Source: Acholeplasmataceae bacterium (GTDB lineage: Bacteria; Bacillota_I; Bacilli_A; Acholeplasmatales; Acholeplasmataceae). Taken from it: 43,083 nt of DNA. Positions 14,701 to 31,965 of the stretch are shown piece after piece (the first letter of the stretch is position 1; each line of letters begins with the position of its first letter). The stretch lies in contig JANJXB010000051.1 in NCBI GenBank assembly GCA_024709245.1, positions 1 through 43,083 of the forward strand, read 5' to 3'. The notes beneath the pieces were generated by a model. The model had not been told where the DNA came from. It saw only the letters and a program-made list of their open reading frames with translations, and searched no databases. Position numbers and translations under genes: made by a program.

Positions 14701-17700
14701 GGTAATACATGGAAAGCACCAGGTCTTAATATCTTTTCTTGATAATATCCTTCGATTTGATCAGCCAAAAAGAGCGCAAGTTCTGCATCGGTAAATCGCA
14801 AATCAATATCTCCTGGATAATCGATGTAGACAAGAACCATGAAGAGTTCACTGCCTGCTCGCATTGCAAATCCCTTAATTCTGACTTGAACACCAACATA
14901 TTCCATGAGATGTTCATATCCAGATGGACTAGCAACAAAGATTGGAACATTTTCTTCCCCTTCACTCAAATAGAACATGTCACCCATCGGATTAATCATC
15001 AGAGTGCCTTCAAGTTCGTAATACTTAAGATGTAATGATGGATCTGTTGCATCCAGTAAATTAAACGCTTCTAATGTGATCGGTGTTGCAACTAAAGGAT
15101 GCGGTACACCTGAGTTCATGATGGATTGAACAGTCTGTTCAGGATCATTCGCTAAAATCATCATGCCTTCAGAATTCATCAACATACCTTTTAACAAGAC
15201 TAAGTCACCAATCTGAATCATTTCATTGGTTGAAACGCTCATCAAGATACCCGTTGAATCCGCTATAATGATCATGTTTTGTTCCAATTGAATGAAGAGA
15301 ACAACACCTTGTACATAATACATCTCTTCATCGGTGACTTGGAGGAACTCTGCAACTGTCAAAATATCGATGGGTTGAACAAAGAGTTCGATATCAACTA
15401 TACCTGTTGCTGTGCCATAGGTGAGTGTTGCAATTAAACTAATCCATGTATCTTCTGTGATGTCTGGACTGATCTGCATTGTTAAAATATTGATCAAATG
15501 GCTATCTTCTTGGGTGACTGCATATTCAACAAAGATGTCAAAGACTGGATGTTGTAATGGTAATTCTGCAATCTGACCTGGATAGAATACAAGACTTTCT
15601 AAGAATGTTTGGAGCATAATCTTGATCAGGTCAATGAACTCTTCATCGGTATAATCCGGTTCAATCGCATCCGGTAGACCGGTAAAGATGAACATCATCG
15701 AAGGTATTCCATCAAAATTCGGTAAACTAATACCTCTGACAACGAGATCGAATTCAGTCAATCCAGAGAAATAGGAATACATGTCTTTGTCAAAGATGAC
15801 CATGGGTAACTGATGGATGCCATCGGTTAAGTAAACCATGTGTTCAAGTTCATCCAAAACAATCGTTCCTCTGATTTCAAAATATTGTACCCAATAAATA
15901 GGATTGTAGACATCTAAAGCATTAAACTGACTGATGGTAATTGGAGTTGAGATGAGTGGGGATTCTTGATCAACACCAATGACTTCAATATCAAGTCCTT
16001 CTTCTCCGCCGACCAATACATAGACACCTTCAAAAGGCATCTTGTATCCACCGACAATAACTAAATCACCAGGCTTGAATTGGTTGATGATTTCAATCGG
16101 TTCACCTTGAACTGTTGAAGATTCATCAAGCATAATCACTAGCGTTCCAGTTTCATCAGCAATCACTGCAATACCAAACATTGGATGTGAAATCAGAATG
16201 ACACCTTGAACCTTATAGTAACCCATATCTTCTGCTAGTTTGAAATCTTCAATAGACAGCAATTCAACAGGCTTCAAGATGATTTGGACTTCGATGAATC
16301 CAGTTGCTTGGTTGATTGTCACTGTAATTCTTAAATCAATGATTTTTTCTTCAACAACAGGTTGGAAGACACCTGTGGTAGGATTATAAAGTGATGCGTT
16401 AACTCCAAAGGTCACTGCTGAAATGGTTGCACCAAAAACAGGTTCAAGTGTAGGAATCATGAATGTCTGTCCGACATAGAAGACACGGCCATCCAACATG
16501 GATTCACCAAACAATAACAATTCATCCACTTTATCTTGATCTGTATAATTTTCAACAACAACAGCATTGGAATGTCCACTGTAGAGAATATGCCATTCAT
16601 AGTTATAACCATTGAAATCATGGATAATGGCTTGGAATGTAACTCTGCTACCCAATGCTGCCATGAATGGGTCATTCATTGGAGTCACAGACTTATAGTT
16701 AATAGCAATCGGTCGATCGCCACCCAAATCAGCAATGTAATAGGTCATGCCAAGTTTCATGAGGAAACCAGAGATGATGATGGGTTGACCATAGTGATAA
16801 GGATCATGTTCATCGGCTGTGGAGACTTCATTAAATGACATTGGACTGTATTCTGGCATCGTGATGGGGGTACTATTGGATGTCAAATTAGTAATGGTTA
16901 TCAGTTGTGGTGTGTTTTCAAAAGGTTGATAATCGGCTTCAAACTCAATCACATCACCAACGACGAATGAGCCAGGGAATCCTAAAACAAACATGTATCC
17001 TGTGCCATCATAGATGTAGAATCCTGGATTCATACCTGGGAACATGTAATAAATGATACCTCTTACCTTGACATGGTATGGATTGGTTTCCAAAATGGTG
17101 CTGATTCTTGTGTAACCATCATCAATAATCCATTTCGCATGAATGGTAATATCTGATGCAGGCATCGAATGGAAGTCAAATGGGATGGTGTATGTATCAT
17201 CTGCATACCAACCATCAAAAATCATGCCTTGTTTGGTAATGGGTCCTGGATATGGAACTGGTGTGTTGTAAGCTACGATTTCATCATCAATTAAAAAGTC
17301 ACCGCCATGGGTATTGTAGACAACGGTATAGAAATTGATGGTCCACTTACCATATGCATTGAGATGATTGGCTGTCATCACAGTGATGTCAAAGGGTTCT
17401 AGGAATAATTGGTCTTTGAACCAGCCAGCAAAAGTATATCCAACTCGAACTGGATCCGATGGAGCGATGATGGCTTGACCTAAACCATACACTTGAACCA
17501 ATGGACTCGATATACCATCATGCCAAGTTAAAGTATATTGATTTTGAGTATATTTCGCATAGAGAGTTGCACCACCGAGTGGCATGTTTACTTCGGTGAA
17601 TGGAATGAGTAAATCAATGTCTGTAAACCAGCCATCAAAAGCATGGTAAAGTTTCACAGGGATTGGTAAGACCAAAGCTGTTCCATAACCTTGAGTGATA

Positions 17701-18677
17701 TCCGTGACTGAACTACCACCATTTTCTTCAAAAGTGATGGTGTAGTTGTTTACTGTCCACTTCGCATAGAGTGTGATGCCATTCAGTGGCATGGTTCCAA
17801 ATGTGTATGCTGTTGTCAAAGCAACATCACTGTACCAACCACCAAATGTATAACCGTCTCGAGTAGGATTTGCAGGTTCTGTTACAGCACTTAAATAGGC
17901 TTGAGTGATATCTGTGACTGAACTACCACCATTTTCTTCAAAAGTGATGGTGTAGTTGTTTGCTGTCCACTTCGCATAAATGGTAAAGTTGCTCGTTGGC
18001 ATGTTGCCAAAAGAGTATGGGAGATTCAAAGCTGCATCGGAATACCAACCACCAAATGTATATCCGGTTTTACTTGGATTTGCTGGAGCAGTAATTTGAG
18101 TTCCAGCATTCTGTGTGATAGGTGCAATTAAACTACCACCATTGGTTTCGAAGGTTAATGTTGCAGTAACAATCACTTCATTCCATTTGGCATAGATTGT
18201 AATGTTTGCATTGGGCATTGTTGAAATCGTATAAGCTGTTAGAAGCCCAACATCACTAAACCATCCTCCAAAAGTATATCCTGATTTTGTTGGATCTGCA
18301 GGTGGCGTAATGGTTGCCCCTGCAACCAATGTAATGGGTGCGATTGTGCTACCCCCATTGGTTTCAAAGGTCATGGTAAATGAACTTAAGATTTCAGTCC
18401 ATTTCGCATAAAGCACAATCTCACTTTGTTGTGTCAAAAGCACAGCAATCGTAAACGGTGCCGTAAGCGCCTCATCTGTGAACCATCCATCAAATTCGAA
18501 TCCATTTCTGATGGGTTCAGGTAAGTCAATTGAGGTGCTGTTGATGCTAATCGTCATGTCTTCAACTTCTTCACCTCCGTTTTCTTCGAAGATGAGATTG
18601 ATTTCCTCACTACCGGTACACGCTGCTATACCGAAAATCACGAGGATGATTGAAAGCAATATCCATAATTTACGCAC
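11760..18677 (-). CDS. Giant InlB-repeat surface lipoprotein with ~290-residue super-repeats
   Basis: A 2305-residue secreted protein of unknown function. The start is taken as GTG at 18677 because AAAGGAGG lies six bases upstream; the ATG at 18698 would overlap that site. The signal peptide ends in lipobox IAAC (Cys20), so it is anchored to the membrane outer face. Residues about 25-525 hold seven InlB/Flg_new repeats (ENGG...GYTFGGW...LYAKW). Residues about 525-1990 alternate small beta domains resembling OB folds (e.g. YYVQGVVL...IIADSTG) with Ig-like segments starting FYPGQ/FRPGD...LP, spaced about 290 residues apart. The C-terminal 300 residues look like further beta domains. There is no LPXTG or enzyme motif. 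Adhesion, polymer binding or nuclease-partner roles are guesses. Confidence 0.85.
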   Translation of the reverse strand: MRKLWILLSIILVIFGIAACTGSEEINLIFEENGGEEVEDMTISINSTSIDLPEPIRNGFEFDGWFTDEALTAPFTIAVLLTQQSEIVLYAKWTEILSSFTMTFETNGGSTIAPITLVAGATITPPADPTKSGYTFGGWFSDVGLLTAYTISTMPNANITIYAKWNEVIVTATLTFETNGGSLIAPITQNAGTQITAPANPSKTGYTFGGWYSDAALNLPYSFGNMPTSNFTIYAKWTANNYTITFEENGGSSVTDITQAYLSAVTEPANPTRDGYTFGGWYSDVALTTAYTFGTMPLNGITLYAKWTVNNYTITFEENGGSSVTDITQGYGTALVLPIPVKLYHAFDGWFTDIDLLIPFTEVNMPLGGATLYAKYTQNQYTLTWHDGISSPLVQVYGLGQAIIAPSDPVRVGYTFAGWFKDQLFLEPFDITVMTANHLNAYGKWTINFYTVVYNTHGGDFLIDDEIVAYNTPVPYPGPITKQGMIFDGWYADDTYTIPFDFHSMPASDITIHAKWIIDDGYTRISTILETNPYHVKVRGIIYYMFPGMNPGFYIYDGTGYMFVLGFPGSFVVGDVIEFEADYQPFENTPQLITITNLTSNSTPITMPEYSPMSFNEVSTADEHDPYHYGQPIIISGFLMKLGMTYYIADLGGDRPIAINYKSVTPMNDPFMAALGSRVTFQAIIHDFNGYNYEWHILYSGHSNAVVVENYTDQDKVDELLLFGESMLDGRVFYVGQTFMIPTLEPVFGATISAVTFGVNASLYNPTTGVFQPVVEEKIIDLRITVTINQATGFIEVQIILKPVELLSIEDFKLAEDMGYYKVQGVILISHPMFGIAVIADETGTLVIMLDESSTVQGEPIEIINQFKPGDLVIVGGYKMPFEGVYVLVGGEEGLDIEVIGVDQESPLISTPITISQFNALDVYNPIYWVQYFEIRGTIVLDELEHMVYLTDGIHQLPMVIFDKDMYSYFSGLTEFDLVVRGISLPNFDGIPSMMFIFTGLPDAIEPDYTDEEFIDLIKIMLQTFLESLVFYPGQIAELPLQHPVFDIFVEYAVTQEDSHLINILTMQISPDITEDTWISLIATLTYGTATGIVDIELFVQPIDILTVAEFLQVTDEEMYYVQGVVLFIQLEQNMIIIADSTGILMSVSTNEMIQIGDLVLLKGMLMNSEGMMILANDPEQTVQSIMNSGVPHPLVATPITLEAFNLLDATDPSLHLKYYELEGTLMINPMGDMFYLSEGEENVPIFVASPSGYEHLMEYVGVQVRIKGFAMRAGSELFMVLVYIDYPGDIDLRFTDAELALFLADQIEGYYQEKILRPGAFHVLPDTYPPYEFTVLYEVFGLNAGLYTLSTGAISHLIEEEIFIDIRATITVGEAVEIVEFQLHVVPIDTQTIAEFKAGVDGDFFMLRGIVVLSNFGGDGPAIIADATGHLFIAPMMDLVIGDEVIISGYRATHEGIALMWDPETTILVEVLSHNMPNPMTLVSHTIDSLWALDMEDRNNWGIFVEVVGYLGFMDDSYMPLITEGLGTGDFLPFMPMFMMQEEPIIQIHNPFDSLRMLQGLRLRLVGFLIPNLNVQEYEPDRMLVIAREQGLSLDYATDQERMDALIDLGTYHLETSKIFRPGDTIELPSVFEPLQATLVWTYIGSSTEFIDLDEMLILEITAETQFLFQVVITIGELEVTHVFTLTAQPYPILSIDEFYQLEHDEYAKVLVIVLYKTPYGDVIFHDRVSSSYLYGEGYPSLQVGDEVIIFTQKREYDRFILASGYAWNARIEPVATLQSLPYVVTETELEVLAKQADEVAQPMLYHLVQGRLIYNTWDNAYYLTDGLNTIMLQIYDQPIRDVLSTFIDHDVRLSCFNYQLYYTAFGPRWTCIVVQDAIFNVTLLDSEIADIMKAYIMHEMGLLYKDGLSYHFSTSHPIYGGTYSFVLDPANALDATLTGNVIQFAESEFPNTVTLHVTATINGFNLDFAVDLAVTAYEDPMQSYNPGSMGMIPVVSGTLPPNTFGGLRVVEVDRHDDWFGGTDLIVDLEFPYPWELGFSELKLQYYDPVDLAWYDLIYYGMPLVTTWNNFSLKLDGPMTVRLISDHGSVSNVVSFGYTSVETYFAGWSLDQSMYLTGIMSPFVGSGLKLESVTVYNSLTGQEVSGGISLQWYRVNPYTWEEIMIPGANQPLYVTTMNDVGYMMMVKVTGDEVNVGGMMKIYSQGTINILNRGYVTNTTTTGFDIGFDYMIDINDLDQLQIYNNSGQMLMITSITETSIPNVFHVEVDLRGLSSIQIHINNMTWTLGSEQVYHDMIGLYVYLLE
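17691..17978. repeat. Two near-identical 78-base units inside the InlB-repeat region
   Basis: Bases 17691-17768 and 17901-17978 differ at only two of 78 positions and lie exactly 210 bases (70 codons) apart, one InlB repeat period. Other repeats in the array are clearly more diverged, so this pair looks recently duplicated or homogenised. Confidence 0.9.
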
Positions 18678-18710
18678 AAGAATGCCTCCTTTTTTCACGA
18701 TGCAAGAGAA

Positions 18711-18816: not shown

Positions 18817-20208
18817 TCAGGGTCTTTTGATCCCTCGATTGACTTTGTCAACATAGGCTTGAATCTCAAACTTACGTTCAAGTCCATGACTATTCATATA
18901 TCTCAGTTTTCCAAAGACTTCTCTTTCTGTCCAAGCACGATCATGTTTACCATAACACCAAGCCACGCTTGCATAACTGTTCGGGTCTCTACCATCAATA
19001 AAATACTTGTTGTTTAGAGCAATGGTCGTTTGATATGCTTCTTGATAGGTAGGCATCCATTCAATGATTTTTTTAGCCCAGTACATACGCATGTAATTGT
19101 GCATGTAACCTGTGTCACGCATCTCCTTCATCGCAGCATTAAAATAAGGATCATGGGTTTGGCTCTGTTCAAGTTCAAACTTCGTGTAAAGATAAGGACG
19201 TTGATCGAAAAGATGTTTTTCCATGGTTGAATATGCCCAGGGTTCTGTCATTTCCTCGAACTTGTCATACCCCTTCACATAAGTGACATAATTCAGTGCA
19301 AGTTCTCTTCTCACCAATAGTTGCTCAATATAGGCATCAAGCACTTGACCTTCCAATTGTCCGTGATCATGTGCTAAAAACAGACGTTCCATGATATCGA
19401 GTGTAGAGATCTGACCAAAATGAATATACATCGACATCAAGGATGTATAATCTGTCGATGGATCATTACTCTCGAGATAGTGACTGGATTTCTGGTTGAT
19501 AAATAAAAGGATGAGTCTAGATGCTTCAATGTAACCACCGTGATAAGTTTCACTTCGCTTGACGGATCGGTCGATATCAAGTTTGGCAAGCAGTGAGTCA
19601 ATATCTGTCAAGTCGACATCACTCATCAATTCCAATGCTTGGATATTCTTCAAGATACTGATCTTTGAAAAATCACGATAAAGTGGATAAAGTTTTGTAA
19701 TCTTAGGTCTCAAGGTATATGCGCCATACTCGGCATGATCCGATGAGACTCTCACAGGAACAATGGCATCGGTATCGACCATATCGATATGTAGATCAGG
19801 GTACTGAACTTTGGCAACATCAAGGACATGCTTACGCCACTGTTTTTGATGTCTTAAGTATCCATAATCCATGACGAGTGCTGCGGCTTGTTCCAAATAA
19901 GGAATAATTCCTAACTCGGGAGAAATCAATTTAATGACAACATTGATTTTAAAATGGTCTAAGATTGCTTTGACTTCTTTCAATCCTTCCAGCATGAATG
20001 CAAAATGTCTTTCATTGGCATCAGGATAGTGTGTGGATAAACCAAAAAAGACCAGAAGTGGTAAATTTTTATGATTTGCAATCTCTATAGCATGATTTAA
20101 TGCATGATTAAAATGGATGCGTTGAGCTTGTTGCATCCAGTAGATGACATATTTCTGATTTGCATTTGATTTTCCAGATTGTAGATGAATGATTCGACCC
20201 GGGTTCAC
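18817..20208 (-). CDS. phrB: Class II CPD photolyase
   Basis: A 463-residue DNA photolyase of class II. The N-terminal alpha/beta antenna domain includes YWMQQAQR, and the C-terminal FAD domain carries class II signatures: MHNYMRMYWAKKIIEW and YFIDGRDPNSYASVAWCYGKHDRAW. It repairs cyclobutane pyrimidine dimers using blue light and FADH-. The start is a GTG at 20208, six bases after AGGAGG. It is the last gene of a minus-strand operon after the VTE5-like and DUF92 genes (spacing 9 and 14 bases), divergent from the heliorhodopsin gene. Class II enzymes are scattered among bacteria, so horizontal acquisition is possible. Confidence 0.95.
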   Translation of the reverse strand: MNPGRIIHLQSGKSNANQKYVIYWMQQAQRIHFNHALNHAIEIANHKNLPLLVFFGLSTHYPDANERHFAFMLEGLKEVKAILDHFKINVVIKLISPELGIIPYLEQAAALVMDYGYLRHQKQWRKHVLDVAKVQYPDLHIDMVDTDAIVPVRVSSDHAEYGAYTLRPKITKLYPLYRDFSKISILKNIQALELMSDVDLTDIDSLLAKLDIDRSVKRSETYHGGYIEASRLILLFINQKSSHYLESNDPSTDYTSLMSMYIHFGQISTLDIMERLFLAHDHGQLEGQVLDAYIEQLLVRRELALNYVTYVKGYDKFEEMTEPWAYSTMEKHLFDQRPYLYTKFELEQSQTHDPYFNAAMKEMRDTGYMHNYMRMYWAKKIIEWMPTYQEAYQTTIALNNKYFIDGRDPNSYASVAWCYGKHDRAWTEREVFGKLRYMNSHGLERKFEIQAYVDKVNRGIKRP

Positions 20209-20217: not shown

Positions 20218-21006
20218 CTAGATGAAGAAGATAAGGGTGAAAAGTGATGCTGCCAAACTTGATATGAAATTGACTGCGTCATTGGTGATGTAGATGAGGC
20301 CAGATGATAAGACAACCTTTTCATTGGGTAACCAGCTTTTTTCAGTGATTTTTCCCGATTTGATACCTTTAAATTGAGCTTGAAGACTTGCTCCCAATAA
20401 TGAATCGATTAAAGAACCTAGAAAGCCACACAAAGTAATGATGAATGCATACTCAATCATATTTGGAATGGTGATGGTTTTGCTTAAAGCATATATACCG
20501 ATGAAGATGACTGCAATGAATAGGGCTCCCAAAAATGATGATAATGTTCCGAGTCCAGAAATAGCTCCTGAAACACCTTTGGGAACCGATTTGAAATTAA
20601 TGATATTCATGGTTTTTCCCTTTGAAAGTGCACCGATTTCGGATGCCCATGTATCTGAATTCGATGATGCAATCGAAACAACCGCTGCTAACATTAAGAT
20701 TTCATGTTGTAAAAAGAAATACACGACTGAAAAGACAGTTGCTACCAATCCATTGGATAGCACTTGGATGTAATTTCTGCCCTGACTGTATTCTTTTTCC
20801 TTTTTTTCGTGAATCTTCGTCAATAAGGATGATGAAATGAAAAAAGCGATTAAAGATCCCCAAATCGTCATTCCTCCAAAAGTATAAATCGTGGTTCCAA
20901 GTAAAGTTGCAGCTAAAAATCCATCCCATGTCAATGATCGTTTGAGATACGCCAAAAAGGCAACCCCAAAACTAAGTAAAAATCCAATCCATAAATCAAT
21001 CAACAT
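20218..21006 (-). CDS. DUF92/TMEM19 membrane protein, VTE6-like (prenyl/phytyl phosphate kinase family)
   Basis: A 262-residue polytopic membrane protein with about six or seven helices. Conserved DUF92 motifs are present: SSNSDTWASEIGALSKG, SVPKGVSGAISGLGT, GSLIDSLLGASLQ and a C-terminal ITNDAVNF. The plant member VTE6 phosphorylates phytyl phosphate to phytyl diphosphate; bacterial members are mostly uncharacterised. GAGGAG precedes the ATG at 21006. It sits directly after a VTE5-like kinase gene, the enzyme catalysing the preceding step in plants, which supports a two-step isoprenoid-alcohol to diphosphate salvage pathway here. The substrate (phytol, geranylgeraniol, farnesol or another) cannot be read from sequence. 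Confidence 0.82.
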   Translation of the reverse strand: MLIDLWIGFLLSFGVAFLAYLKRSLTWDGFLAATLLGTTIYTFGGMTIWGSLIAFFISSSLLTKIHEKKEKEYSQGRNYIQVLSNGLVATVFSVVYFFLQHEILMLAAVVSIASSNSDTWASEIGALSKGKTMNIINFKSVPKGVSGAISGLGTLSSFLGALFIAVIFIGIYALSKTITIPNMIEYAFIITLCGFLGSLIDSLLGASLQAQFKGIKSGKITEKSWLPNEKVVLSSGLIYITNDAVNFISSLAASLFTLIFFI

Positions 21007-21020: not shown

Positions 21021-21677
21021 TTAAATAATGAATAATAAATAATATGCAAGCGTGGTGAGCAAAGGTACCGACAGATTATCCAGACCCTTTGGTGTGAATA
21101 ACTCAATGAAAGTTGCAATGAGTGCAATCACAAGAGAAATCATGAGCCATCCAGTAACGCCTTCCATGGACAAGAGTACCATGGATACCGAGAGGGATGC
21201 AATAAACATTGCTATACTACCTTCTAAGGATTTCCCAAATAATAATTGATGTTTTCCAAATTTCTTACCAATGACCGCAGCAAATCCATCACCATATCCT
21301 AAAATCAATATCCCAAGTCCACCAATATAAGGTTGTTTTATGAAACCAAAAAATACGATGACTAAGATGAGTAGTGATATTGGAAAATAGACAGTTCCTA
21401 AATGACCTTGTCCACCTCGCTCCATGGCTTTAAAAATATTTTGTCGATATGAGAGGTAATTGAGTCCAATGAAAGTCATCGGTGGAACCATCGCATACCA
21501 TAACGAATCTTGACTGGTGAAGAAAATCATGGCCAAAATCCACCAATTTGAAACACCAATATGGATGAATTTTCTGGCTCCCTCATCACCAAGGATGTTT
21601 TTCTTTTGTAAGATGGTTGAGATCCCCATGATGAGGAAAACAAATACATAGCTCAATACAAGTCCTAATAGATTCAT
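21021..21677 (-). CDS. VTE5/SEC59-type polyprenol (phytol/dolichol) kinase family protein
   Basis: A 218-residue membrane protein with about six helices. It shows the CTP-dependent lipid kinase pattern: ARKFIHIGVSNWW near residue 35, GYGDGFAAVIGKKFGKH...KSLEGS near residue 130, and the C-terminal FTPKGLDNLSVPL. The family phosphorylates isoprenoid alcohols such as phytol and dolichol; related CdsA proteins use phosphatidate, but the short length and the DNLSVPL end favour the kinase branch. AGGAG precedes the ATG at 21677. It is the first gene of the operon with the DUF92 and photolyase genes and is preceded by a leader of about 160 nucleotides. Confidence 0.8.
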   Translation of the reverse strand: MNLLGLVLSYVFVFLIMGISTILQKKNILGDEGARKFIHIGVSNWWILAMIFFTSQDSLWYAMVPPMTFIGLNYLSYRQNIFKAMERGGQGHLGTVYFPISLLILVIVFFGFIKQPYIGGLGILILGYGDGFAAVIGKKFGKHQLLFGKSLEGSIAMFIASLSVSMVLLSMEGVTGWLMISLVIALIATFIELFTPKGLDNLSVPLLTTLAYYLLFII

Positions 21678-21838
21678 TGCTAATCTCCTATTTGCCCCAT
21701 TTCGTCATGATGGGAGGTGCTGATCTGAATCATCACCTTTGACAGTCAAGTTCACTTCACGCAGTAAAAATTCATTTATAAGGCAATCCTGGACTATATT
21801 TCTAAAATATAGGACACTCTTTACCTATTTGATGTATA
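21678..21838 (-). other. Structured leader of the VTE5-VTE6-photolyase operon, no known class recognised
   Basis: The minus strand has an extended -10 element (TGTTATAAT, 21844-21852), which predicts a transcript start near 21837 and a leader of about 160 nucleotides. Its first 60 bases can fold with an outer stem AUAGGUAA/UUGCCUUAU (21778-21838) and an inner stem CUAUAUUU/AAAUAUAG. Further on, GGTG...CACC and a CTTTGAC/GTCAAG dyad are visible. I could not match it to a known riboswitch. It may be a regulatory leader or chance pairing. The rest of the 321-base divergent gap holds the heliorhodopsin promoter and an inverted repeat. Confidence 0.35.
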
Positions 21839-21893
21839 TTTAAATTATAACAAATCCGCATACGATGCACATGAAGAAAACATATGATTGTGG

Positions 21894-21915
21894 GAAACTG
21901 TGAGAATTCAGTTTC
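21894..21915. promoter_or_regulatory. Inverted repeat upstream of the heliorhodopsin promoter
   Basis: GAAACTG and CAGTTTC form a perfect 7-base dyad around an 8-base spacer (TGAGAATT), 25 bases before the -35 box. Position and symmetry suit a dimeric regulator acting on the divergent heliorhodopsin and photolyase operons. No regulator gene is next to it. Confidence 0.45.
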
Positions 21916-21940
21916 AAAAATGTTAAGATAAGCGCATTTT

Positions 21941-21969
21941 TTGAACTTTATGAAATCCTTCTCTATAAT
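21941..21969 (+). promoter_or_regulatory. Promoter of the heliorhodopsin gene
   Basis: TTGAAC is followed by exactly 17 bases and TATAAT, with a start expected near 21977 and an AAAGGAG ribosome site before the ATG at 21999. Confidence 0.8.
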
Positions 21970-21998
21970 GAAGATGAAACAATAAAAAGGAGAAAATT

Positions 21999-22799
21999 AT
22001 GCAACAGACAACATTACAGAAATTAAAGAAGTTTAACATCATCATGGGTGGTTTCCACCTGATTCAAGGGTTATTGATGATTGTAATTGCGATTTTCGTG
22101 ATTGGTGAAATCAATCCCGCTTTCCAAATCATCGTTACCCAGAATTTCCTTGACTTTGATACCGTTAATCAAAGACTTTTCTTAAACTCAAAAGAACTCT
22201 TTGAATTACCCTTTGGTATCATGGTAGGCGTCTTCCTGTTATTATCTGCACTCGCACATGCACTGATTTCATTACCTAAGAAACTCAACGATCAGTACAA
22301 TCGCGATTTGGAAAAAGGCGTAAACCGTTTTAGATGGTTTGAATATGCACTTTCATCATCTGTGATGATTGTACTCATCGCAACCCTCTTCGGAATTTAT
22401 GACATCGCATCCCTCACATTGATTTTCATTGTGAACGCAGCTATGAACTTATTTGGTCTTGATATGGAATTGCTCAATGCAAACCGTAAAGAAGGCGAAA
22501 AGGTTAAGTGGGGCGCATTCATTTGGGGTTCTATCGCAGGTATTGCTCCCTGGATTGCAATCTTCTTCTATATGACAGGTGCAGGTGGAGATATCACTCC
22601 TCCATGGTTTGTGTGGGCAATCATCGGTACATACTTCGTTGCATTCAACACATTCCCAATCAACATGATTCTACAATACAAAAAAGTTGGTAAATGGAAG
22701 GACTATCTCTATGGAGAAAGAACTTACATCGTCCTCAGTTTGGTTGCTAAATCCATTCTTGCATGGTTAGTTCTCTTTGGAGCATTCCAACCATCTTAA
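21999..22799 (+). CDS. Heliorhodopsin
   Basis: A 266-residue seven-helix protein recognised as a heliorhodopsin, the retinal-binding family with inverted topology. Family landmarks are in place: His20 in helix 1 (GGFHLIQG), His87 in helix 2 (ALAHALI), RWFEYALSSS with Glu115 as the likely Schiff-base counterion, NAAMNLFGLDME, and helix 7 LSLVAKSILAW with Lys251 as the retinal lysine and Ser247 four residues before it. Known members show a slow photocycle without established ion pumping and probably signal light. Divergent transcription from a photolyase operon fits a light or UV-response role. No retinal-synthesis gene (brp/blh, crtB, crtI) lies in the window, so retinal must be made or obtained elsewhere. 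Confidence 0.95.
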   Translation: MQQTTLQKLKKFNIIMGGFHLIQGLLMIVIAIFVIGEINPAFQIIVTQNFLDFDTVNQRLFLNSKELFELPFGIMVGVFLLLSALAHALISLPKKLNDQYNRDLEKGVNRFRWFEYALSSSVMIVLIATLFGIYDIASLTLIFIVNAAMNLFGLDMELLNANRKEGEKVKWGAFIWGSIAGIAPWIAIFFYMTGAGGDITPPWFVWAIIGTYFVAFNTFPINMILQYKKVGKWKDYLYGERTYIVLSLVAKSILAWLVLFGAFQPS

Positions 22800-22807: not shown

Positions 22808-22828
22808 GCCAGGCTAGCCTGGCTTTTT
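22808..22828 (+). terminator. Terminator between heliorhodopsin and VTE1-like genes
   Basis: GCCAGGCTAGCCTGGC is a perfect 16-base palindrome (stem GCCAGG/CCTGGC, loop CTAG) followed by TTTTTCTTT. The next gene starts 16 bases later with no space for its own promoter, so readthrough probably feeds it at a reduced level. Confidence 0.8.
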
Positions 22829-22843: not shown

Positions 22844-23806
22844 ATGATTCTTAAGAAAATCATCCATCCCGAATACTTTCAAGGAAACAAGAAAAAAACC
22901 AATTACTTTGAGGGTTGGTACTATAAACTTGTCTCAAAGGATCAGAAGCATACCCTTGCATTCATTCCTGGTATCAGTTTGAATGAGAAAGATCCTCATG
23001 CATTCATTCAGGTGTTTATTTCTTCTCGAGAAGCTTTGGAAACCAAATTAAAAAGTTACTATTTTAAATTCGATCTGTCTGACTTTAGTTATAGCCACGC
23101 ATCATTCAATGTTTCAATTGGATCCAATTTCTTCTCTTTGAACAAACTTTCAATCGATTTATCCAACGAACAGGTTAAACTTTTTGGTACTCTGCAAATA
23201 GAAGAGATCACACCCATTCAAAAGAGTATAGGATCTCCGAATATCATGGGATTCTTCGGTTATCTAGGATTCATGGAATGTTATCATGGAGTCATCTCCA
23301 TGAGTCACCGCTTGGATGGTGTATTACTCATCAATCAACAACCCATCTCTTTTCACGACGCTAAAGGCTATATAGAAAAAGATTGGGGTAAATCATTCCC
23401 AAGAGCCTATGTTTGGCTACAATCCAATCACTTTAAGGATCCCAACACCTCATTTATGTTCTCGTATGCAGATATTCCTTTTCTAGGATTCTATTTTAAG
23501 GGTCTCATTGCGAATCTTAGAGTTCGCGGTAAGGAGTATCGATTTGCAACCTACAATCGATCTAAAATAGTGAAGGAAGAAATCGATCAGCATCGAGTGC
23601 ACTACCGTGTTAGGAAAGGAAAATATGTCTTAGAAGTCAATGCAGAATCAACGACCTCTATCGGATTGGCTTCTCCGAAAAATGGGATGATGATCAATCA
23701 GATTAAAGAAGGACTTTCTGGCTGGATTCGTGTCCAATTATTTGAGAAAAACATTTTGGTCTATGAAGATACAGGTTATCATGCAGGCATTGAAATCATG
23801 AAGTGA
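22844..23806 (+). CDS. Tocopherol cyclase-family (VTE1-like) protein
   Basis: A 320-residue protein of the tocopherol-cyclase-like family. The start FEGWYYKLVS (residues 24-33) and the central DWGKSFPRAYVWLQSNHF (about 185-205) are typical, as is the lipocalin-like beta-rich pattern. The plant enzyme VTE1 closes the chromanol ring of tocopherols; bacterial homologues in non-photosynthetic Bacillota have no established function, and cyclase activity should not be assumed. AGAGGTGA precedes the ATG. It lies 44 bases after heliorhodopsin on the same strand, and homologues of two other vitamin E pathway proteins (VTE5, VTE6) are encoded divergently 1.2 kb away. There is no membrane segment. Confidence 0.8.
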   Translation: MILKKIIHPEYFQGNKKKTNYFEGWYYKLVSKDQKHTLAFIPGISLNEKDPHAFIQVFISSREALETKLKSYYFKFDLSDFSYSHASFNVSIGSNFFSLNKLSIDLSNEQVKLFGTLQIEEITPIQKSIGSPNIMGFFGYLGFMECYHGVISMSHRLDGVLLINQQPISFHDAKGYIEKDWGKSFPRAYVWLQSNHFKDPNTSFMFSYADIPFLGFYFKGLIANLRVRGKEYRFATYNRSKIVKEEIDQHRVHYRVRKGKYVLEVNAESTTSIGLASPKNGMMINQIKEGLSGWIRVQLFEKNILVYEDTGYHAGIEIMK

Positions 23807-24253: not shown

Positions 24254-24754
24254 TTACTGCACTTCATCAAAATATCTACCCAGAGTAAACAGAAAATCTG
24301 AAAGACGATTCACATACTGAAGTGTGTGTGGATTGATTTCTTGTTCCTGACTGAGTAAGATCAGTTCTCGTTCAGCTCTTCTCACCGTCACTCTTGCCAT
24401 GTTTAAAAACGAACCTGCTTTGGTTTGATCGAGCTTGATGAATTTGGTGAGTGGTTTTAAAAAGGAATCATAATGATCAAGTCTGGACTCAATCCAACTG
24501 ACATCTTCCGTTTTTGTTATCTTTTTTTCAGGATTATTTAAGGCTATCTCGTAACATATTGAAAAAAGATGGTCATGGGTTTTATTTAAATCTTCTAAAA
24601 CTTCAGGGATTCTGATGTAGTGCTTGGATACAAGGATGAAACCCATCGCTTCATCAAATGCACCATTGACGACAATGTGTAAATCGGCTTTACTGACACG
24701 TTTATTGAAGAGATCTGTTTGACCTGCATCACCACGTTTGGTATAGATTTTCAT
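24254..24754 (-). CDS. PduO-type cob(I)alamin adenosyltransferase
   Basis: A 166-residue ATP:cob(I)alamin adenosyltransferase of the PduO type. The N-terminal ATP loop reads TKRGDAGQTDLF, and the C-terminal helix carries NMARVTVRRAERELI, the family's Arg-rich signature. The ATG at 24754 is chosen over the ORF-track start at 24895 because AGGAG lies eight bases upstream and the protein then begins exactly with the family's MKIYTKRGD. It makes adenosylcobalamin, the cofactor of lysine 5,6-aminomutase (KamDE) encoded just upstream in the same operon, giving the cluster its own coenzyme supply. The family motif RxxDD-type residues deviate slightly (AFDEAMGF in place of the usual DELNA). Confidence 0.9.
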   Translation of the reverse strand: MKIYTKRGDAGQTDLFNKRVSKADLHIVVNGAFDEAMGFILVSKHYIRIPEVLEDLNKTHDHLFSICYEIALNNPEKKITKTEDVSWIESRLDHYDSFLKPLTKFIKLDQTKAGSFLNMARVTVRRAERELILLSQEQEINPHTLQYVNRLSDFLFTLGRYFDEVQ

Positions 24755-24764
24755 GGTTGAACTC

Positions 24765-25097
24765 CTATGTCTTCTTGTTATTGATTTTCTTTGGTTTAGG
24801 TGCAGGTAAATCATCATAGGTTGCTTTGATGAGATTGATGATTTCTTCATGAGCATCGGTGTCTTCAATGAGGAAATAAGGTTTACTTTGCTCATAAAAT
24901 TTAGCCATGATCACTTCACCTAATAATTCTCTACCTTTTTCAGTCGGTTTAATGAAAAGTTGATTATCTGCCAATACCCCGACCATTTTTTCATGATAAA
25001 ACAATCCATATTCTCCAAACATGCGTTTGAAGGATATGCCATCTGAATATTTCAATCGATCTTCCATGTACTCTTTGAATGCCAATGATGTTGCCAA
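24765..25097 (-). CDS. TfoX N-terminal-domain protein
   Basis: A 110-residue protein matching the TfoX N-terminal domain (SFKRMFGEYGLFYHEKMVGVLADNQLFIKP) with a lysine-rich tail. The start is a TTG at 25097 with GAGGTGAT upstream; a nearby ATG is in another frame. Stand-alone proteins of this kind are widespread and of unknown function; only the full-length two-domain TfoX/Sxy is tied to competence. It lies between kamE (65 bases, no terminator seen) and the adenosyltransferase gene (10 bases), so it is probably co-transcribed with the lysine operon. Confidence 0.8.
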   Translation of the reverse strand: MATSLAFKEYMEDRLKYSDGISFKRMFGEYGLFYHEKMVGVLADNQLFIKPTEKGRELLGEVIMAKFYEQSKPYFLIEDTDAHEEIINLIKATYDDLPAPKPKKINNKKT

Positions 25098-25162
25098 GAA
25101 TCATCACCTCACTTCATAGGATACACTTATTCTATCACATACTGATCCAAATCACTTCAACG

Positions 25163-25915
25163 TTACTTGAGTTTTCGGCCTTTCTTCACCAGGGTTTGAA
25201 CGATAAAACTTGCAACATCGTTGGCATATTTCTTCGGACCAAACCCAGCATCATAACCAAGTTCTTTGGCAAGTCCGAAATTGATTCTTGGTCCACCAAT
25301 GATGGCGATGAATCGATCTCTCATTTTTTCTGCTTCGAGAAGTTCAACGAAAGCTGTTAGATTTTGAATATGGATGTCTTTTTGTGTCACAGTTTGACTG
25401 ATCAGAATGACATCTGCATCATACTCGATTGCTTTTTCGAGTAATACCTCATTTTCGACTTGTCCACCTAGATTATAGGCTTTTATGCCACGATAGCGTT
25501 CGAGTCCATAATGTCCATTATATCCTTTCATGTTCATGATGGCATCAATGCCTACCGTGTGTGCATCAGTTCCTGTCGATGCTCCCACAATGACGATAGG
25601 TGCTTGTAGATGATGATCAATGAATCTTTCGACTTCTTCCATCTCCATGGATGAGGATTCTATCTCAGTCACAGAGAGTGTTGTTGTATCTATCTGATGC
25701 TCGACAGTTCCATAAATAATATAGAAAGAGAAGGACTCCGATAGTGCAGCACTGTGCACGACTGCAGGGTTATGAATGCCCATGAGTGATGCAAAACGTT
25801 TTGCTGCTTCTTCGCCTAATGCATTATGTGGCATAGGAAGTGAGAAGGATATTTGGATTTTGCCATCATTCATGGTATCTCCATAGGGTCTAATCCAATT
25901 AGATTTGAGAGGCAT
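25163..25915 (-). CDS. kamE: Lysine 5,6-aminomutase beta subunit, cobalamin-binding
   Basis: A 250-residue small subunit of the adenosylcobalamin- and PLP-dependent D-lysine/beta-lysine 5,6-aminomutase. The cobalamin-binding motif DAHTVG (DxHxxG) lies near residue 128 in a B12-binding Rossmann domain, with SQT and GGPRI loops beyond it. The lysine in GIKAYNLGGQ matches the region that holds the PLP-binding lysine in the characterised enzyme. It overlaps the end of kamD by 17 bases and has AGGTGA before its ATG. It converts beta-lysine to 3,5-diaminohexanoate together with KamD. Confidence 0.95.
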   Translation of the reverse strand: MPLKSNWIRPYGDTMNDGKIQISFSLPMPHNALGEEAAKRFASLMGIHNPAVVHSAALSESFSFYIIYGTVEHQIDTTTLSVTEIESSSMEMEEVERFIDHHLQAPIVIVGASTGTDAHTVGIDAIMNMKGYNGHYGLERYRGIKAYNLGGQVENEVLLEKAIEYDADVILISQTVTQKDIHIQNLTAFVELLEAEKMRDRFIAIIGGPRINFGLAKELGYDAGFGPKKYANDVASFIVQTLVKKGRKLK

Positions 25916-27476
25916 TTTTTTTCACCTCGAGTCTTTCAAGCATCAAATCCAATACTGGATTCATGTAGCAATCATCTTTGATCAAAACACCTTTCAATCC
26001 TTTACCACCATTTTCATGTCTGGAAATACCAGCAAATGTTCCTTTCTCAAGTGTTTTAAACATGCCATCTTTTTTGATCTCATCGAGGAGTGATTGTGCA
26101 TGACTTAAAACTTGATGTGCTCGCTTCATGATGATTCCATCTGTCTTATAGGTGATTTCATCTCCAAAGTTTTGAAATGCTTTTTCGATGTAGTTCGCAT
26201 TATCGAGTGCAATTGCACGATCACTTACAAAAGGAGTGTGGATTGCTTCTGTCATCATGCCAAGAAGTTGAATGGATTGATGCGATGTGACGGAAGCAAT
26301 GTTAAATAAGGCATTTTGAATGGTTCCTTTGAAAATGTCTCCTGTCATGTGTTTGGTTGGAGGCATATATTTGAGTGGAGAATTCGGAAATATCTCTCTT
26401 GTCATTTCCGCTTGTGCAAGTTCATATAGAAAGCTATTCTCAAATGATGGATCAATCTCATAGGCATGACCCAAACCCATGAGTGATTCAGGCATCTTGG
26501 CAAGTTTTGCAAATTGCTCATTAATGAACTGTGAAGCTAAAACTGTATGAGCATGTTCGATTGCATCAGATGTGGTCAAATAGTTATCTTCACCTGTGTT
26601 GATGATGATTTCTGCATAGGCAGATAATACTCTTGAGAAATATTGGTCAACAAAGGTTCTTTTCATGTTGATATCTCGAAAGATAATTCCATACAGTGAA
26701 TCATTGAGCATCATATCCAAACGTTCTACTGCACCTAAAGTTGCAATCTCAGGCATACATAGACCTGAAGCATAATTGACAAGTTTAATGTATCTACCTT
26801 CAGCTTCGGATGCTTCATCAAGTGCTTGACGCATCAGTCTAAAGTTTTCCTGAGTTGCGAAAGTTCCACCAAATCCTTCCGTAGTTGCTCCATTTGGAAT
26901 GTAGTCTAAAAGAGACTGACCTGTGCTTCTAATGACAGCAATGATGTCTGCACCTTTTTTAACTGCAGAGATGGCTTGTTTGATGTCTTCATAAATATTA
27001 CCGGTCGCAACAATCACATATTTGTTGGGAGTTGATTTTTTCGGTGTTCTATCTAGCCATTCTCTACGAATTGATTTCATCTCATCAATCCGTGCCAAAG
27101 TCTTCTCGAAATAAGGCATTAAATCGCCTAAATAAGGGCTTTTTGGCAATTCTTCATAGACTTTGAGATTAATAGCACCCGATTGAACTCGATGCGCAAT
27201 TTCATTGGGAGTTGCCATGTGTTCATGACATGCATACGATAGGTAATGACAGATACCTTTTGATAAATTGGCTTTTGAAAATACATGATCAACAACAACG
27301 TTCACAAGAGGAACCATCAGTTCATTCACTCCCACAACACCAAGCATTCTTAAAAGTGATCGCTCCACTGATACTGTCGTGTGCAAGTCGATGTGTGCTT
27401 GTACTTGTTTCGCAATGATGTTTGCATCATGCCTGCATCGAGATATCACTTTTGGATCGAGATTGAGTTTTCCCAT
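25899..27476 (-). CDS. kamD: Lysine 5,6-aminomutase alpha subunit
   Basis: A 525-residue protein matching KamD over its full length, with the TIM-barrel subunit segments GANIYEDIKQA-like (ATGNIYEDIKQAI), IAVIRSTGQSLLDYIPNGATTEGFGGTFATQENF and VNYASGLCMPEIA, the region that embraces PLP and substrate. It works with KamE. GGAGAGG precedes the ATG, two bases after the kamB stop. In clostridia a kamC gene usually lies between kamB and kamD; here it does not. Confidence 0.95.
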   Translation of the reverse strand: MGKLNLDPKVISRCRHDANIIAKQVQAHIDLHTTVSVERSLLRMLGVVGVNELMVPLVNVVVDHVFSKANLSKGICHYLSYACHEHMATPNEIAHRVQSGAINLKVYEELPKSPYLGDLMPYFEKTLARIDEMKSIRREWLDRTPKKSTPNKYVIVATGNIYEDIKQAISAVKKGADIIAVIRSTGQSLLDYIPNGATTEGFGGTFATQENFRLMRQALDEASEAEGRYIKLVNYASGLCMPEIATLGAVERLDMMLNDSLYGIIFRDINMKRTFVDQYFSRVLSAYAEIIINTGEDNYLTTSDAIEHAHTVLASQFINEQFAKLAKMPESLMGLGHAYEIDPSFENSFLYELAQAEMTREIFPNSPLKYMPPTKHMTGDIFKGTIQNALFNIASVTSHQSIQLLGMMTEAIHTPFVSDRAIALDNANYIEKAFQNFGDEITYKTDGIIMKRAHQVLSHAQSLLDEIKKDGMFKTLEKGTFAGISRHENGGKGLKGVLIKDDCYMNPVLDLMLERLEVKKNASQI

Positions 27477-27478
27477 TT

Positions 27479-28453
27479 CTATTCCTCTCCTTTCACATTG
27501 ATGACTGGTAGATTCAATTCCCGTTGAAATCTTGTCATCATTTCGTTTTGATCATAGCAAGCACCATCCGGTCGAAATGGATTGATGGTCACCATCAAGA
27601 TCGGAATGGGTCTTGCCACTTCGATTTGAATCTTAAAATGATTCAAGGCTCGAAGATGTTTTTGTGATGCCATCCATTTCGATGGATCTTCGATGATGAG
27701 TTTGATGGATTGAATGCTTCGATTGAAAATGCAATCGATGATGGATGAAGTGATTGCACCTTGAATATAGATGGCATCGACTTCATCTTGATGCTGGTCA
27801 AGAATGGATTCTAAGTTTTTTATCTTTTTTTCATCATGTTTCACAGAATGATCTTTGAGGTAAATTGTGATTCCTGCATGAGAATCCAATGCATATGTCG
27901 TTTTATTCATACTGAAAAGACTCAGAAGATCTCTGGTTTTTTTGATTGTCTCATCCATCACAGGACTAAAAGATGCTCCTGCTGCGAGTACAATACCTTC
28001 CATCACTTCAATATTGGAAAACGTAAGTCTATTGAAAGCACCATCAATCAAGATCTTATCACAATGTTTTTTCATTGTTTTCACGACTTGATTTAACTCT
28101 TGATTGGTTGATGGGCCTGCGACAATCACGGTTCCTTCAGATGCTATTTCTACAATCAAAATTTGCCCAAGTGGTGTAATGTAATCGGTATTTTCAATCA
28201 CTTTCCATACAACATTGGATGATTCAAGACACGATAGAGTGGTTGCAACCACCATATTGGGTCTTACCATGATTGCTGGTTTTGGAAAAAAGTGAATTTG
28301 ATCTAAAGGTTCACCATCCAACCCAATGGATGTCAGTCCAATTCTGATTTCAGGATAGATTTCAATGATCTTATTCAGTGTGGTTGTTTTTCCGGCATTC
28401 TTGGCAAGACCCATGATTCCGATGACGGATACACCATCAAGAATGTCTCTCAC
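27479..28453 (-). CDS. kamB: KamB-like P-loop protein of the lysine 5,6-aminomutase reactivase
   Basis: A 324-residue protein with a P-loop at the N-terminus (GLAKNAGKTTTLN, residues 14-26) and a middle segment resembling nucleotide-binding dethiobiotin-synthase-like folds (ILIDGAFNR). In Clostridium lysine operons the gene in this position is kamB, annotated as part of the aminomutase reactivase together with the MutS-like ATPase KamC; function is by family and position. The start is a GTG at 28453 overlapping kamA by 17 bases, with only a weak AAAGAG upstream, so the start is uncertain. Confidence 0.8.
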   Translation of the reverse strand: MRDILDGVSVIGIMGLAKNAGKTTTLNKIIEIYPEIRIGLTSIGLDGEPLDQIHFFPKPAIMVRPNMVVATTLSCLESSNVVWKVIENTDYITPLGQILIVEIASEGTVIVAGPSTNQELNQVVKTMKKHCDKILIDGAFNRLTFSNIEVMEGIVLAAGASFSPVMDETIKKTRDLLSLFSMNKTTYALDSHAGITIYLKDHSVKHDEKKIKNLESILDQHQDEVDAIYIQGAITSSIIDCIFNRSIQSIKLIIEDPSKWMASQKHLRALNHFKIQIEVARPIPILMVTINPFRPDGACYDQNEMMTRFQRELNLPVINVKGEE

Positions 28454-29711
28454 GATTCATACGCTCTTTTCTTTTTAATAACTCAGGTTCCATCGAGATT
28501 CGATTCCCCTCAAGCAATCCTGATATACCATCCAAACGGTGTGCTTTACAATCCTCACACGCACATTCGGATTTATAATTTTCAGGTTCACTGTATGTGG
28601 TAATGACACCTTCAAAGTTTCTCAAGATCACTTTGCCTGGAGCTTGCGATACAACATAGTTTGGCATCACTGGAATTTTTCCACCACCTCCAGGTGCATC
28701 CACAACAAACGTTGGGACAGCAAAACCGCTGATGTGTCCCCTTAATCCTTCGATGATTTCAATCCCCTTACTGATCGATGTTCTGAAATGTTCAATGCCT
28801 TTGGACAAATCACATTGATATAAATAATATGGTCTCACTCGAATCGCGATTAATCCCTTGACAAGTTTTCGCATGATATGTACACAATCATTCACACCTT
28901 TAAGAAGGACACTTTGATTGCCAACAGGTATACCCGCATCAGCGAGTCTGTCAATAGCAAGTTTACTTTCAATTGTAATTTCATCTGGATGATTAAAATG
29001 TGTATTCACCCAAATTGGGTGATATTTTTTGAGCATATTCACCAATTTCTCAGTCACACGCTGAGGCATAACAACAGGTGTTCTTGTCCCAAATCGAATC
29101 ACTTGGACATGATCAATAGCTCTAAGTTTTTTCAAGATATACTCGATGCGCTCATCAGAAGCCATGAATGCATCGCCGCCTGAAAGGAGGACATCATTGA
29201 CTTCTTCATGATTTTTGATGTACTCAATTGCTCGATCGATCTGCTCTATTTTCAATTCAGCATCTTTCTGACCCGCAAATCTTCTTCTTGTACAATGTCT
29301 GCAATATGTTGAGCACATATCGGTAATCAAAAAAAGTACACGATCAGGATAGCGGTGTGTGAGCCCAGGAACAGGTGAATCATGATCTTCTGCTAAAGGA
29401 TCCAATAGATCATTTTTTCCCATCAATAACTCAGATCCAAAAGGTATAGCTTGCTTTCGGATTGGGCAATTCGGGTTATTTGGATCAATCAATGTTAAAT
29501 AATATGGGGTGATGGCCATGCGTAAAGAACCGAGGACTTGCTCGATGGTATGCTCTTCTTCAGTGGTGAGTGTCATGTATTTTCTCAACTGAACCGCATT
29601 TTTGATTCGATTGGATGTCTGCCATTTCCAATCGTTCCAGTCATCATCGGACACATCTTTGAAGTATTGATATCTTCTTTCGAGATATGCCTGATTGAAT
29701 TCTGCTTTCAT
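28437..29711 (-). CDS. kamA: L-lysine 2,3-aminomutase
   Basis: A 424-residue radical SAM enzyme. The 4Fe-4S/SAM motif CSTYCRHC (CxxxCxxC) is preceded by RVLFLITDM, the PLP lysine lies in GGGGKIPVMPNY, and the C-terminus has the extra cysteine pair of KamA (CACEDCKAH). It converts L-lysine to L-beta-lysine, the first step of the pathway. The ORF track begins 36 residues early inside kdd; the ATG at 29711 is preferred because AGGGAGA lies six bases upstream and length then matches the family (about 416). EpmB and glutamate 2,3-aminomutases are related, but operon context settles the assignment. Confidence 0.95.
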   Translation of the reverse strand: MKAEFNQAYLERRYQYFKDVSDDDWNDWKWQTSNRIKNAVQLRKYMTLTTEEEHTIEQVLGSLRMAITPYYLTLIDPNNPNCPIRKQAIPFGSELLMGKNDLLDPLAEDHDSPVPGLTHRYPDRVLFLITDMCSTYCRHCTRRRFAGQKDAELKIEQIDRAIEYIKNHEEVNDVLLSGGDAFMASDERIEYILKKLRAIDHVQVIRFGTRTPVVMPQRVTEKLVNMLKKYHPIWVNTHFNHPDEITIESKLAIDRLADAGIPVGNQSVLLKGVNDCVHIMRKLVKGLIAIRVRPYYLYQCDLSKGIEHFRTSISKGIEIIEGLRGHISGFAVPTFVVDAPGGGGKIPVMPNYVVSQAPGKVILRNFEGVITTYSEPENYKSECACEDCKAHRLDGISGLLEGNRISMEPELLKRKERMNRERHS

Positions 29712-29721
29712 ATGTTTCTCC

Positions 29722-30753
29722 CTATGTGTATCGTCTCGTGAATAAATCGAATAATGCCTTACTTTCTCTAAAAATGTCAAGCGTGAATGTTGCATGTGAT
29801 TCCGTATAACCATTTCCAATCATCATCGTAATGTCTTTTCCGACACCTTCAGCACCGAGTGCTGCCTTCGTAAAAGAGGTTGCCATAGAAAAGAAATATG
29901 CGATTCCATGATCTTTCGTGGTTAAAATGGTGGTCATTTCTGTGTTTTGAACATTGACAACATTGATGGTTAGATCTGCCAATCTACCCTGTGTCACACG
30001 ATGAACCATTTCGTAGATGTGAATGCTTTCCGTCGCATCACCAACAAGTATATGATCACAATATCCAAGAGAATCTAATTCTCTTTTTTGGGCTTGATCA
30101 TAAACTAATCCAATGACTATCCCTGTGGGTTTTACCATTTTGTGTGCTTGATAGCAGCAGAGAACTCCACTTTTACCTGCAGCACCAATGACAAATACCG
30201 TATCTCCTTTGTGTGCAAGCTTATTGACTTGTGCGGGAGCACCTGCAACATCCAATGCGGATAGGACAAGTTTTTCATCAAGATCTGGAGGCAAAATGGA
30301 GAAAAGTCCTGAATCAAAGAGAATCGCTTGTCCTACAATCCGCACCTGGTCGGTGTTTAAGTCGATATCAAGAATATCAACTAAATGGAGTGGTGTGAGT
30401 GAAAGTGATACCAGTGTTGCGATGCGCATGCCTTTTTTGAGGGTTTGATCATGAAACATGGATCCCACTTCACGTACAGTACCTATCAACATACCCCCAC
30501 TTTTAGTGATAGGGTTTTGCATCTTACCTTGTGTTGTGATGATATCTTTCATCATCTGTCTCATTTTTGTCAAATCATCGTTGCAGGCATTTCGGATCTG
30601 ATGAAAGGATGCTGAATCAATGTTTAAAATATCGACGTCAATCAAGACTTCATTCTCATAAATCATGGGTGTAGAGTCAATTTGATAAGCTGCTTGAGGT
30701 AGAACACCTTTAGGTTCGATGACTCTGTGTGTTCCATACTTGCATGGTGTCAT
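29722..30753 (-). CDS. kdd: L-erythro-3,5-diaminohexanoate dehydrogenase
   Basis: A 343-residue protein starting CKYGTHRVIEPKGVLPQAAYQID, typical of Kdd, with a nucleotide-binding loop VIGAAGKSGVLC near residue 190 and the catalytic-core stretch that follows. It oxidises 3,5-diaminohexanoate to 3-keto-5-aminohexanoate with NAD+ and release of ammonia. ATGA overlap with kce upstream and 10 bases to kamA downstream show tight coupling. Confidence 0.93.
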   Translation of the reverse strand: MTPCKYGTHRVIEPKGVLPQAAYQIDSTPMIYENEVLIDVDILNIDSASFHQIRNACNDDLTKMRQMMKDIITTQGKMQNPITKSGGMLIGTVREVGSMFHDQTLKKGMRIATLVSLSLTPLHLVDILDIDLNTDQVRIVGQAILFDSGLFSILPPDLDEKLVLSALDVAGAPAQVNKLAHKGDTVFVIGAAGKSGVLCCYQAHKMVKPTGIVIGLVYDQAQKRELDSLGYCDHILVGDATESIHIYEMVHRVTQGRLADLTINVVNVQNTEMTTILTTKDHGIAYFFSMATSFTKAALGAEGVGKDITMMIGNGYTESHATFTLDIFRESKALFDLFTRRYT

Positions 30754-31580
30754 TTGCGTTTTCCCCCGATTCCCAAAATCATTCTAGCTTCATTTGGCGA
30801 TGCAATTTCTCTGCCAAAAGATGCTGCCATATGTGCAACTTTTTGAACCAAAACACCATTACCTTCAGCAAGTTTTCCTTTTTCAAGGTACAGATTATCT
30901 TCAAGTCCTACCCTGACGTGTCCTCCATGCTTGATCGAAAGTAAGGCAAGTGGAAATTCGTATTTGCCTATGCCAGCAACACTGAAGGTTGCATCCTTTG
31001 GAATGCTTTCTTTAAGAAATATAAAATCTCTTTCCTCTCCAGTCATTCCACCATTCACACCGAGAACAAAACTGAAATGCAAAGGTGCATGAATCAGTCC
31101 TTTTCGATGCAATCTAAGCACCTGATCAATATGTCCTTTTTCAAAACATTCAAGTTCTGGAAATATATTTCTATCCTTCATGATTTTTGCAAAATGAATG
31201 ATATCATTTTCAGTATTGACAAATATAGAATCTCCACCAAAATTGAGTGTTCCACAATCTAAAGTCGCCATTTCGATGTCAAGTTCAGTCGGTTGTAATC
31301 TTTCCTCTCGCTTCATGCCAATGGCTCCACCTGTTGAAGGTTGGATGATAACATCAGGACATCTAGACCGTATTTTTTCGATGATTTTTTGATATCGATC
31401 TTGATCTTGTGTTGGAGTACCATCATCAAATCGTGCGTGAACATGGATAATCGATGCACCAGCAGAGTAAGCTTGGAAAGCTTGTTCAGCCATTTCATCA
31501 ATCGTATATGGGACAAATGGATTGTCATTTTTAGTGACTTCTGCACCTGTGATTGCACAGGTGATGATGAGTTTATTCAT
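30750..31580 (-). CDS. kce: 3-keto-5-aminohexanoate cleavage enzyme
   Basis: A 276-residue BKACE-family TIM-barrel enzyme. Family motifs are visible: [13 protein letters not shown] at the N-terminus, [17 protein letters not shown] with the zinc histidines (HVH), and [14 protein letters not shown] near the end. With acetyl-CoA it cleaves 3-keto-5-aminohexanoate to acetoacetate and 3-aminobutyryl-CoA. Its ATG lies within the last codons of kal. Confidence 0.95.
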
Positions 31581-31965
31581 GTTTTTTTCGTTGATGAATT
31601 AATGGAACCACACAGGTACCATATGCTTCAGTCGTCAAAATCTTTCTTTCTAAAACATCAGCGGCAGATGGTGATATTTCGGGTCTCGCTTCAATCACTT
31701 TGTAACATTTGAAATGCATTTTACGTGAAGTGTTGCCGACTGTAGTGATTTCGCCAACCACTTCAATAAAATCACCTGCATGCAAAGGTGCAAAAAAATC
31801 GACCTTTTCATAAGCTCTAAGCAAACCCTCATTACCATCATGATGAATCAACAATTCGGTTGCAATATCGCCAAACAACCCAAGTACTCTTGCACCGTCA
31901 ACCAAAGATCCTCCATAATGGGCATCCTGTTGACTTAGTCTTAACCGGTGAACCACTCTTTCCAT
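31573..31965 (-). CDS. kal: 3-aminobutyryl-CoA ammonia lyase
   Basis: A 130-residue hot-dog-fold protein with the Kal-typical start [28 protein letters not shown] and later [17 protein letters not shown]. It removes ammonia from 3-aminobutyryl-CoA to give crotonyl-CoA. GGAGG precedes the ATG, one base after the atoA stop. Length is normal. Confidence 0.93.

Follow-up and report, generated by a model that had tools for sequence, protein, structure and literature searches.

Heliorhodopsins (HeRs) were proposed in a 2021 mSphere survey to be light switches that act against light-induced oxidative stress (PMC8612252), and several described systems resemble the locus reported here. In Trichococcus flocculiformis an HeR is partnered with a class II CPD photolyase, a partnership that has been shown for Trichococcus (PMC9769723), and the Zn-finger HeRs, which are fusion proteins, lie beside lycopene/phytoene genes and photolyase genes (PMC8612252). 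The archaeal TaHeR (PDB 6is6) comes from a host without retinal synthesis, and for this reason uptake of retinal through a fenestration was postulated (PMC9385722). Plant and cyanobacterial phytol salvage by VTE5 and VTE6 phosphorylates a prenol in two steps, and an Arg-Lys-x-x-His clamp has been described for the prenol kinase of the malaria parasite Plasmodium (PMC10849223).

The DNA analysed here, a stretch of 43,083 nucleotides that we call the window, belongs to the draft genome of a wall-less bacterium of the family Acholeplasmataceae (1.54 Mb, 126 contigs, 92.7% completeness), and was compared with a set of 88 genomes of that family, of which 35 have an HeR and 20 a phytoene synthase. 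The HeR gene (21999..22799, + strand, 266 aa) begins with an ATG preceded by AAGGAG and is followed on the same strand by a terminator-like hairpin (22808..22823) and by a gene for a tocopherol-cyclase-like protein, TOC (22844..23806). Across a divergent intergenic region (21678..21998) lie three genes on the minus strand: a 218 aa membrane protein that we assign by its motifs as a VTE5-like putative prenol (phytol/geranylgeraniol) kinase (21021..21677), a DUF92 membrane protein that is a VTE6-like putative prenyl-phosphate kinase (20218..21006; PF01940, 218.6 bits) and, at the end of the string, a class II-type photolyase (phr2, 18817..20208). The photolyase matches TIGR00591 over its full length at 436 bits, below the curated cut-off of 550, and also matches PF00875. 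A promoter-like TTGAAC-17-TATAAT is present at 21941-21969 (+), and the count of such promoters is no higher than in shuffled sequence.

As in T. flocculiformis, whose HeR is 68% identical in protein sequence, the window HeR lies near a class II-type photolyase; there, however, the photolyase is on the same strand and accompanied by DUF2238, whereas here it is divergent, with the kinases in between and TOC behind the HeR. The locus shares the photoprotection theme of the Zn-finger HeR loci, but the window HeR is not a fusion, the window has no carotenoid genes, and tocopherol is unmentioned in the paper on those HeRs (PMC8612252).

The HeR itself is intact, as judged by profiles and residues. 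Residues 9-262 match profile positions 1-241 of 242 of Pfam Heliorhodopsin PF18761 (315.8 bits, E 2e-94), and the NCBIfam equivalog model HeR gives 298.3 bits against a cut-off of 100, which places the full-length protein in the family. TaHeR is matched at E 5e-51 and, although archaeal, has all five key residues in common with the window protein: by alignment count, with a construct offset of 6, H20, H87, E115, S247 and K251 fall on TaHeR H23, H82, E108, S234 and K238. The window HeR thus has the Schiff-base Lys, the Glu counterion, the two His and the Ser near the Schiff base that are expected of the family. H20, H87, E115 and K251 are invariant in 98 distinct aligned HeR proteins and S247 is Ser in 97 of them; the structure 7clj has an Asp in the E115 column, consistent with this being the counterion column. 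The first-pass annotation, made from the window alone, had read the gene as an intact HeR with these five residues, and the profile matches and both alignments bear this out, with the key lysine where it should be and not displaced. The gene is also under strong purifying selection (dN/dS = 0.03 between the window and its nearest relative, at 96% protein identity), and its opposite strand has many stops. Elsewhere in the family, eight genomes have two HeR genes each (G026, G030, G035, G039, G044, G082, G083, G085), and broken HeR remnants occur in G003 and G006.

The same locus in relatives has carotenoid genes. In five genomes (G028, G029, G031, G042, G077) the order photolyase - DUF92 - VTE5-like - phytoene synthase - CrtI is found with all genes directed away from the HeR, so that CrtI and phytoene synthase occupy exactly the interval between HeR and kinases, and TOC follows the HeR in all of these except G042. 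The phytoene synthase-like protein matches PF00494 at 226 bits and has both aspartate motifs; it scores best with CrtB and HpnD, under the cut-off in both cases, and its product may be C40 or C30. The CrtI-family protein matches TIGR02734 at 441 bits (cut-off 238). In the window and in G030, G032 and G039 the kinases lie directly opposite the HeR and exactly crtI and the phytoene synthase gene are missing, while in ten further genomes a photolyase alone lies opposite the HeR, always divergent. The genus is thus a natural series at one locus, from the full carotenoid string through kinases only to photolyase only, with nearly all HeRs intact; the exceptions are one frameshifted copy and two loci without an HeR. 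The frameshifted HeR is that of G042 (L075 6926-8050), where TOC is 5 kb away and the carotenoid string is nonetheless whole. In G035 and G045 (L187 116-2300, L186 1-1650) phytoene synthase is directly divergent to TOC, with neither CrtI nor the HeR between them, and each of these genomes has another HeR elsewhere.

The absence of crtI and phytoene synthase from the window lineage is most likely a loss, as read from gene order and a tree of the two kinases. In this tree the window with G030, and G032 with G039, each form a group with full support nested among carriers of phytoene synthase; the order of forks within the genus is only moderately supported and is compatible with two losses as well as with a single loss and a regain. 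A count of changes alone does not separate gain from loss, and for the direction we rely on the outer carriers of phytoene synthase, G077 and other genera.

Both kinases remain conserved in the window, where 0 of 50 invariant residues of the VTE5-like protein and 1 of 51 of DUF92 are changed. Pfam, NCBIfam and PDB hold nothing that matches the VTE5-like protein, and a plasmid search with it gave no match; its structure model (pLDDT 57.7) is too poor for fold comparison. Its RKxxH clamp (R35, K36, H39) and GDGxAA motif are invariant in 14 relatives. We take the GDGxAA region, with the conserved Lys and Gly behind it, to resemble that of dolichol/phytol kinases, and VTE6 presumably corresponds to DUF92. 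The two putative kinases would thus act on prenols and prenyl phosphates, in the two-step logic of the VTE5-VTE6 and Plasmodium systems; unlike in VTE5-VTE6 systems, the pair in relatives forms a cluster with the genes for phytoene synthase and desaturase.

Leaving aside two weak paralogues, the VTE5-like gene and DUF92 share one set of 19 genomes, and the VTE5-like gene is also present as a fragment at a contig edge beside phytoene synthase in G035. Kinases are present in 15 of the 20 phytoene synthase genomes and are clustered there with phytoene synthase; 11 of these 15 lack a prenyl synthase. The other five, in which kinases are missing, make up one genus, and four of them have a prenyl synthase. 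Since UbiA is absent from all 88 genomes, no user of long prenyl diphosphates other than phytoene synthase was found. That these relatives feed carotenoid synthesis from salvaged prenols is therefore a good hypothesis from gene content, and the series points to it in genomes without any prenyl synthase. The earlier suggestion that the divergent membrane proteins supply isoprenoids gains support in this form, from the clustering of the pair with phytoene synthase and desaturase beside the HeR in relatives, and fails for retinal in the window genome. There, conservation of the kinases without a known user means that they must serve something that the lost pathway leaves unexplained. Gene spacing had suggested that prenyl synthase and the VTE5-like kinase strictly replace each other, an idea given up as G003 and G005-G007 have both. 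Relaxed constraint on DUF92 in the pair lacking phytoene synthase (58% identity versus 87% in a pair having it) is not claimed, key residues being kept.

The genome-wide searches covered phytoene synthase, prenyl synthase, Blh/BCD, RPE65-type oxygenase and UbiA. Neither a phytoene/squalene synthase (same search positive in 7 of 14 controls and 20 of 88 relatives) nor a trans-prenyl synthase (14 of 14 controls, 8 of 88 relatives) was found in the draft genome. Among the 88 genomes there is no RPE65-type carotenoid oxygenase (2 controls positive), no UbiA (14 of 14 controls positive) and nothing over cut-off for Blh/BCD, the last a weaker negative as no control matched either. A weak hit to BCD in G031, at 21.8 bits and with two stops, falls on an ordinary membrane ORF and was set aside. 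The absence of carotenoid and retinal genes that the first-pass annotation noted in the window thus extends to the draft genome as far as searched: of the genes it had suggested looking for there, no crtB-type, crtE-type or Blh gene was detected, Blh without a positive control. Its proposal that retinal is made from isoprenoids delivered by the salvage kinases finds no support here, as phytoene and prenyl synthases, Blh/BCD and carotenoid oxygenase were not found, while its other suggestion, that the organism may take up retinal, is plausible. As far as a draft allows, known routes to retinal are excluded by these searches, both in the window genome and in the relatives that carry phytoene synthase. 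Retinal uptake from outside is the best reading for the window HeR, as was postulated for TaHeR on the same ground of a host without retinal synthesis; a retinal-forming enzyme of an undescribed kind is possible.

We think it probable that the window encodes a functional HeR light sensor in a module against light damage that includes photolyase and TOC, and that, its carotenoid genes having been lost, it takes retinal from the surroundings and signals to a partner. As the genome is 92.7% complete in 126 contigs, a retinal pathway could instead lie in the missing 7%. This is improbable, given that the reduced locus is common to four genomes of the genus, all of them without phytoene and prenyl synthase, G032 and G039 among them being 98-99% complete, and that neither BCD over cut-off nor RPE65 occurs in any of the 88 genomes. 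Retention and conservation of the kinases without phytoene synthase would be accounted for if the organism made its own chromophore by a non-canonical route, in which salvaged geranylgeraniol is doubly phosphorylated by the VTE5-like protein and DUF92 and other enzymes, TOC perhaps, complete the work, or in which the same set of enzymes, TOC perhaps included, converts a scavenged carotenoid. TOC occurs in 30 of the 35 HeR genomes and has the fold of polyene/terpenoid hydratases, cyclases and lyases, in keeping with such a role. However, the draft genome yielded no phytoene synthase, prenyl synthase, UbiA, BCD or RPE65-type enzyme, nor any enzyme known to cleave a carotenoid, and we regard this route, too, as having a small chance of being correct.

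The lack of a retinal source in the draft genome as searched would also fit an HeR that has become a chromophore-free scaffold and still regulates its partners. Such a scaffold would not need a Schiff-base lysine, and the invariance of this lysine, of the counterion and of both histidines, with a dN/dS of 0.03, makes it very unlikely. A further, rather doubtful combination is that carotenoids in the relatives start from prenols salvaged by the VTE5-like protein and DUF92 and not from a prenyl synthase, with TOC as a new polyene-handling enzyme or carrier that would supply or tailor the HeR chromophore and still work on scavenged material in the window lineage.

TOC matches PF14249 only with its C-terminal half (residues 135-318; 62 bits, cut-off 26.6). 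When a model built on eight sequences (pLDDT 75.8) was compared with known structures, VIA gave Z 17-21 and rmsd 3.5-4.2 over 262-288 residues for AttH, kievitone hydratase, a phosphosteroid lyase and the Diels-Alderases CghA, Fsa2 and Phm7; 2ich is among the matches, and the next unrelated fold has a Z of 6.5. By this model TOC is of the CrtC/AttH-type two-domain lipocalin-like fold, a shared fold that shows no function. A true tocopherol cyclase (VTE1) was rejected, as UbiA, which makes its substrate, is found in none of the 88 genomes. HeR and TOC occur together in 30 genomes and alone in 5 and 3, respectively, these genomes being related; TOC is the next gene to the HeR in most family members, and in G005 the two are adjacent in opposite order. 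A possible role of TOC is to bind or alter a polyene. A hairpin with a T tract lies between the two genes in all 18 loci examined, where shuffled sequence would give 0.5, although the loci are related and not independent; the sequences of the stems differ, and the start of TOC follows after 14-32 bases. This arrangement suggests a terminator with partial readthrough, by which more HeR than TOC would be made.

The photolyase is the best candidate for the HeR partner, being its most constant divergent neighbour as well as the partner in Trichococcus (PMC9769723). In genus g14 (L139 11549-14373) the next genes after HeR-TOC encode a DASH cryptochrome and a photolyase-related (DPRP) protein, so that three photolyase-type genes surround one HeR. 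Under the uptake reading, the ancestor of the genus would have had the string crtI - phytoene synthase - VTE5-like - DUF92 - photolyase opposite HeR-TOC, and the window lineage would have lost crtI and phytoene synthase and kept the kinases and photolyase. With the known routes gone, the retinal that the HeR binds, or a polyene aldehyde resembling it, must come from the surroundings, probably by way of the lateral opening that heliorhodopsins are known to have. Light would isomerise the retinal and the HeR would then act on a partner, most likely the photolyase. Carotenoids, where present, may add photoprotection, in keeping with the light-switch role proposed for HeRs (PMC8612252).

Other features of the window were recorded alongside. 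Downstream of TOC is a lysine-fermentation string (24254-33880; lysine 2,3-aminomutase, lysine 5,6-aminomutase, 3,5-diaminohexanoate dehydrogenase, cobalamin adenosyltransferase) that includes a lysine riboswitch at 33708-33880 (-), and a cobalamin riboswitch (85.6 bits) lies at 37857-38029 (-). Adjoining the photolyase gene is one for a 2312-residue protein with Listeria-Bacteroides (InlB-type) repeats (11760-18698, -), and 10481-11620 (-) encodes a GGDEF (diguanylate cyclase) protein in this Acholeplasmataceae genome.

The supply of the chromophore, the link between HeR and photolyase and the role of TOC would all be testable in the genus series. The genus thereby addresses the question of how HeRs acquire retinal in hosts unable to make it.
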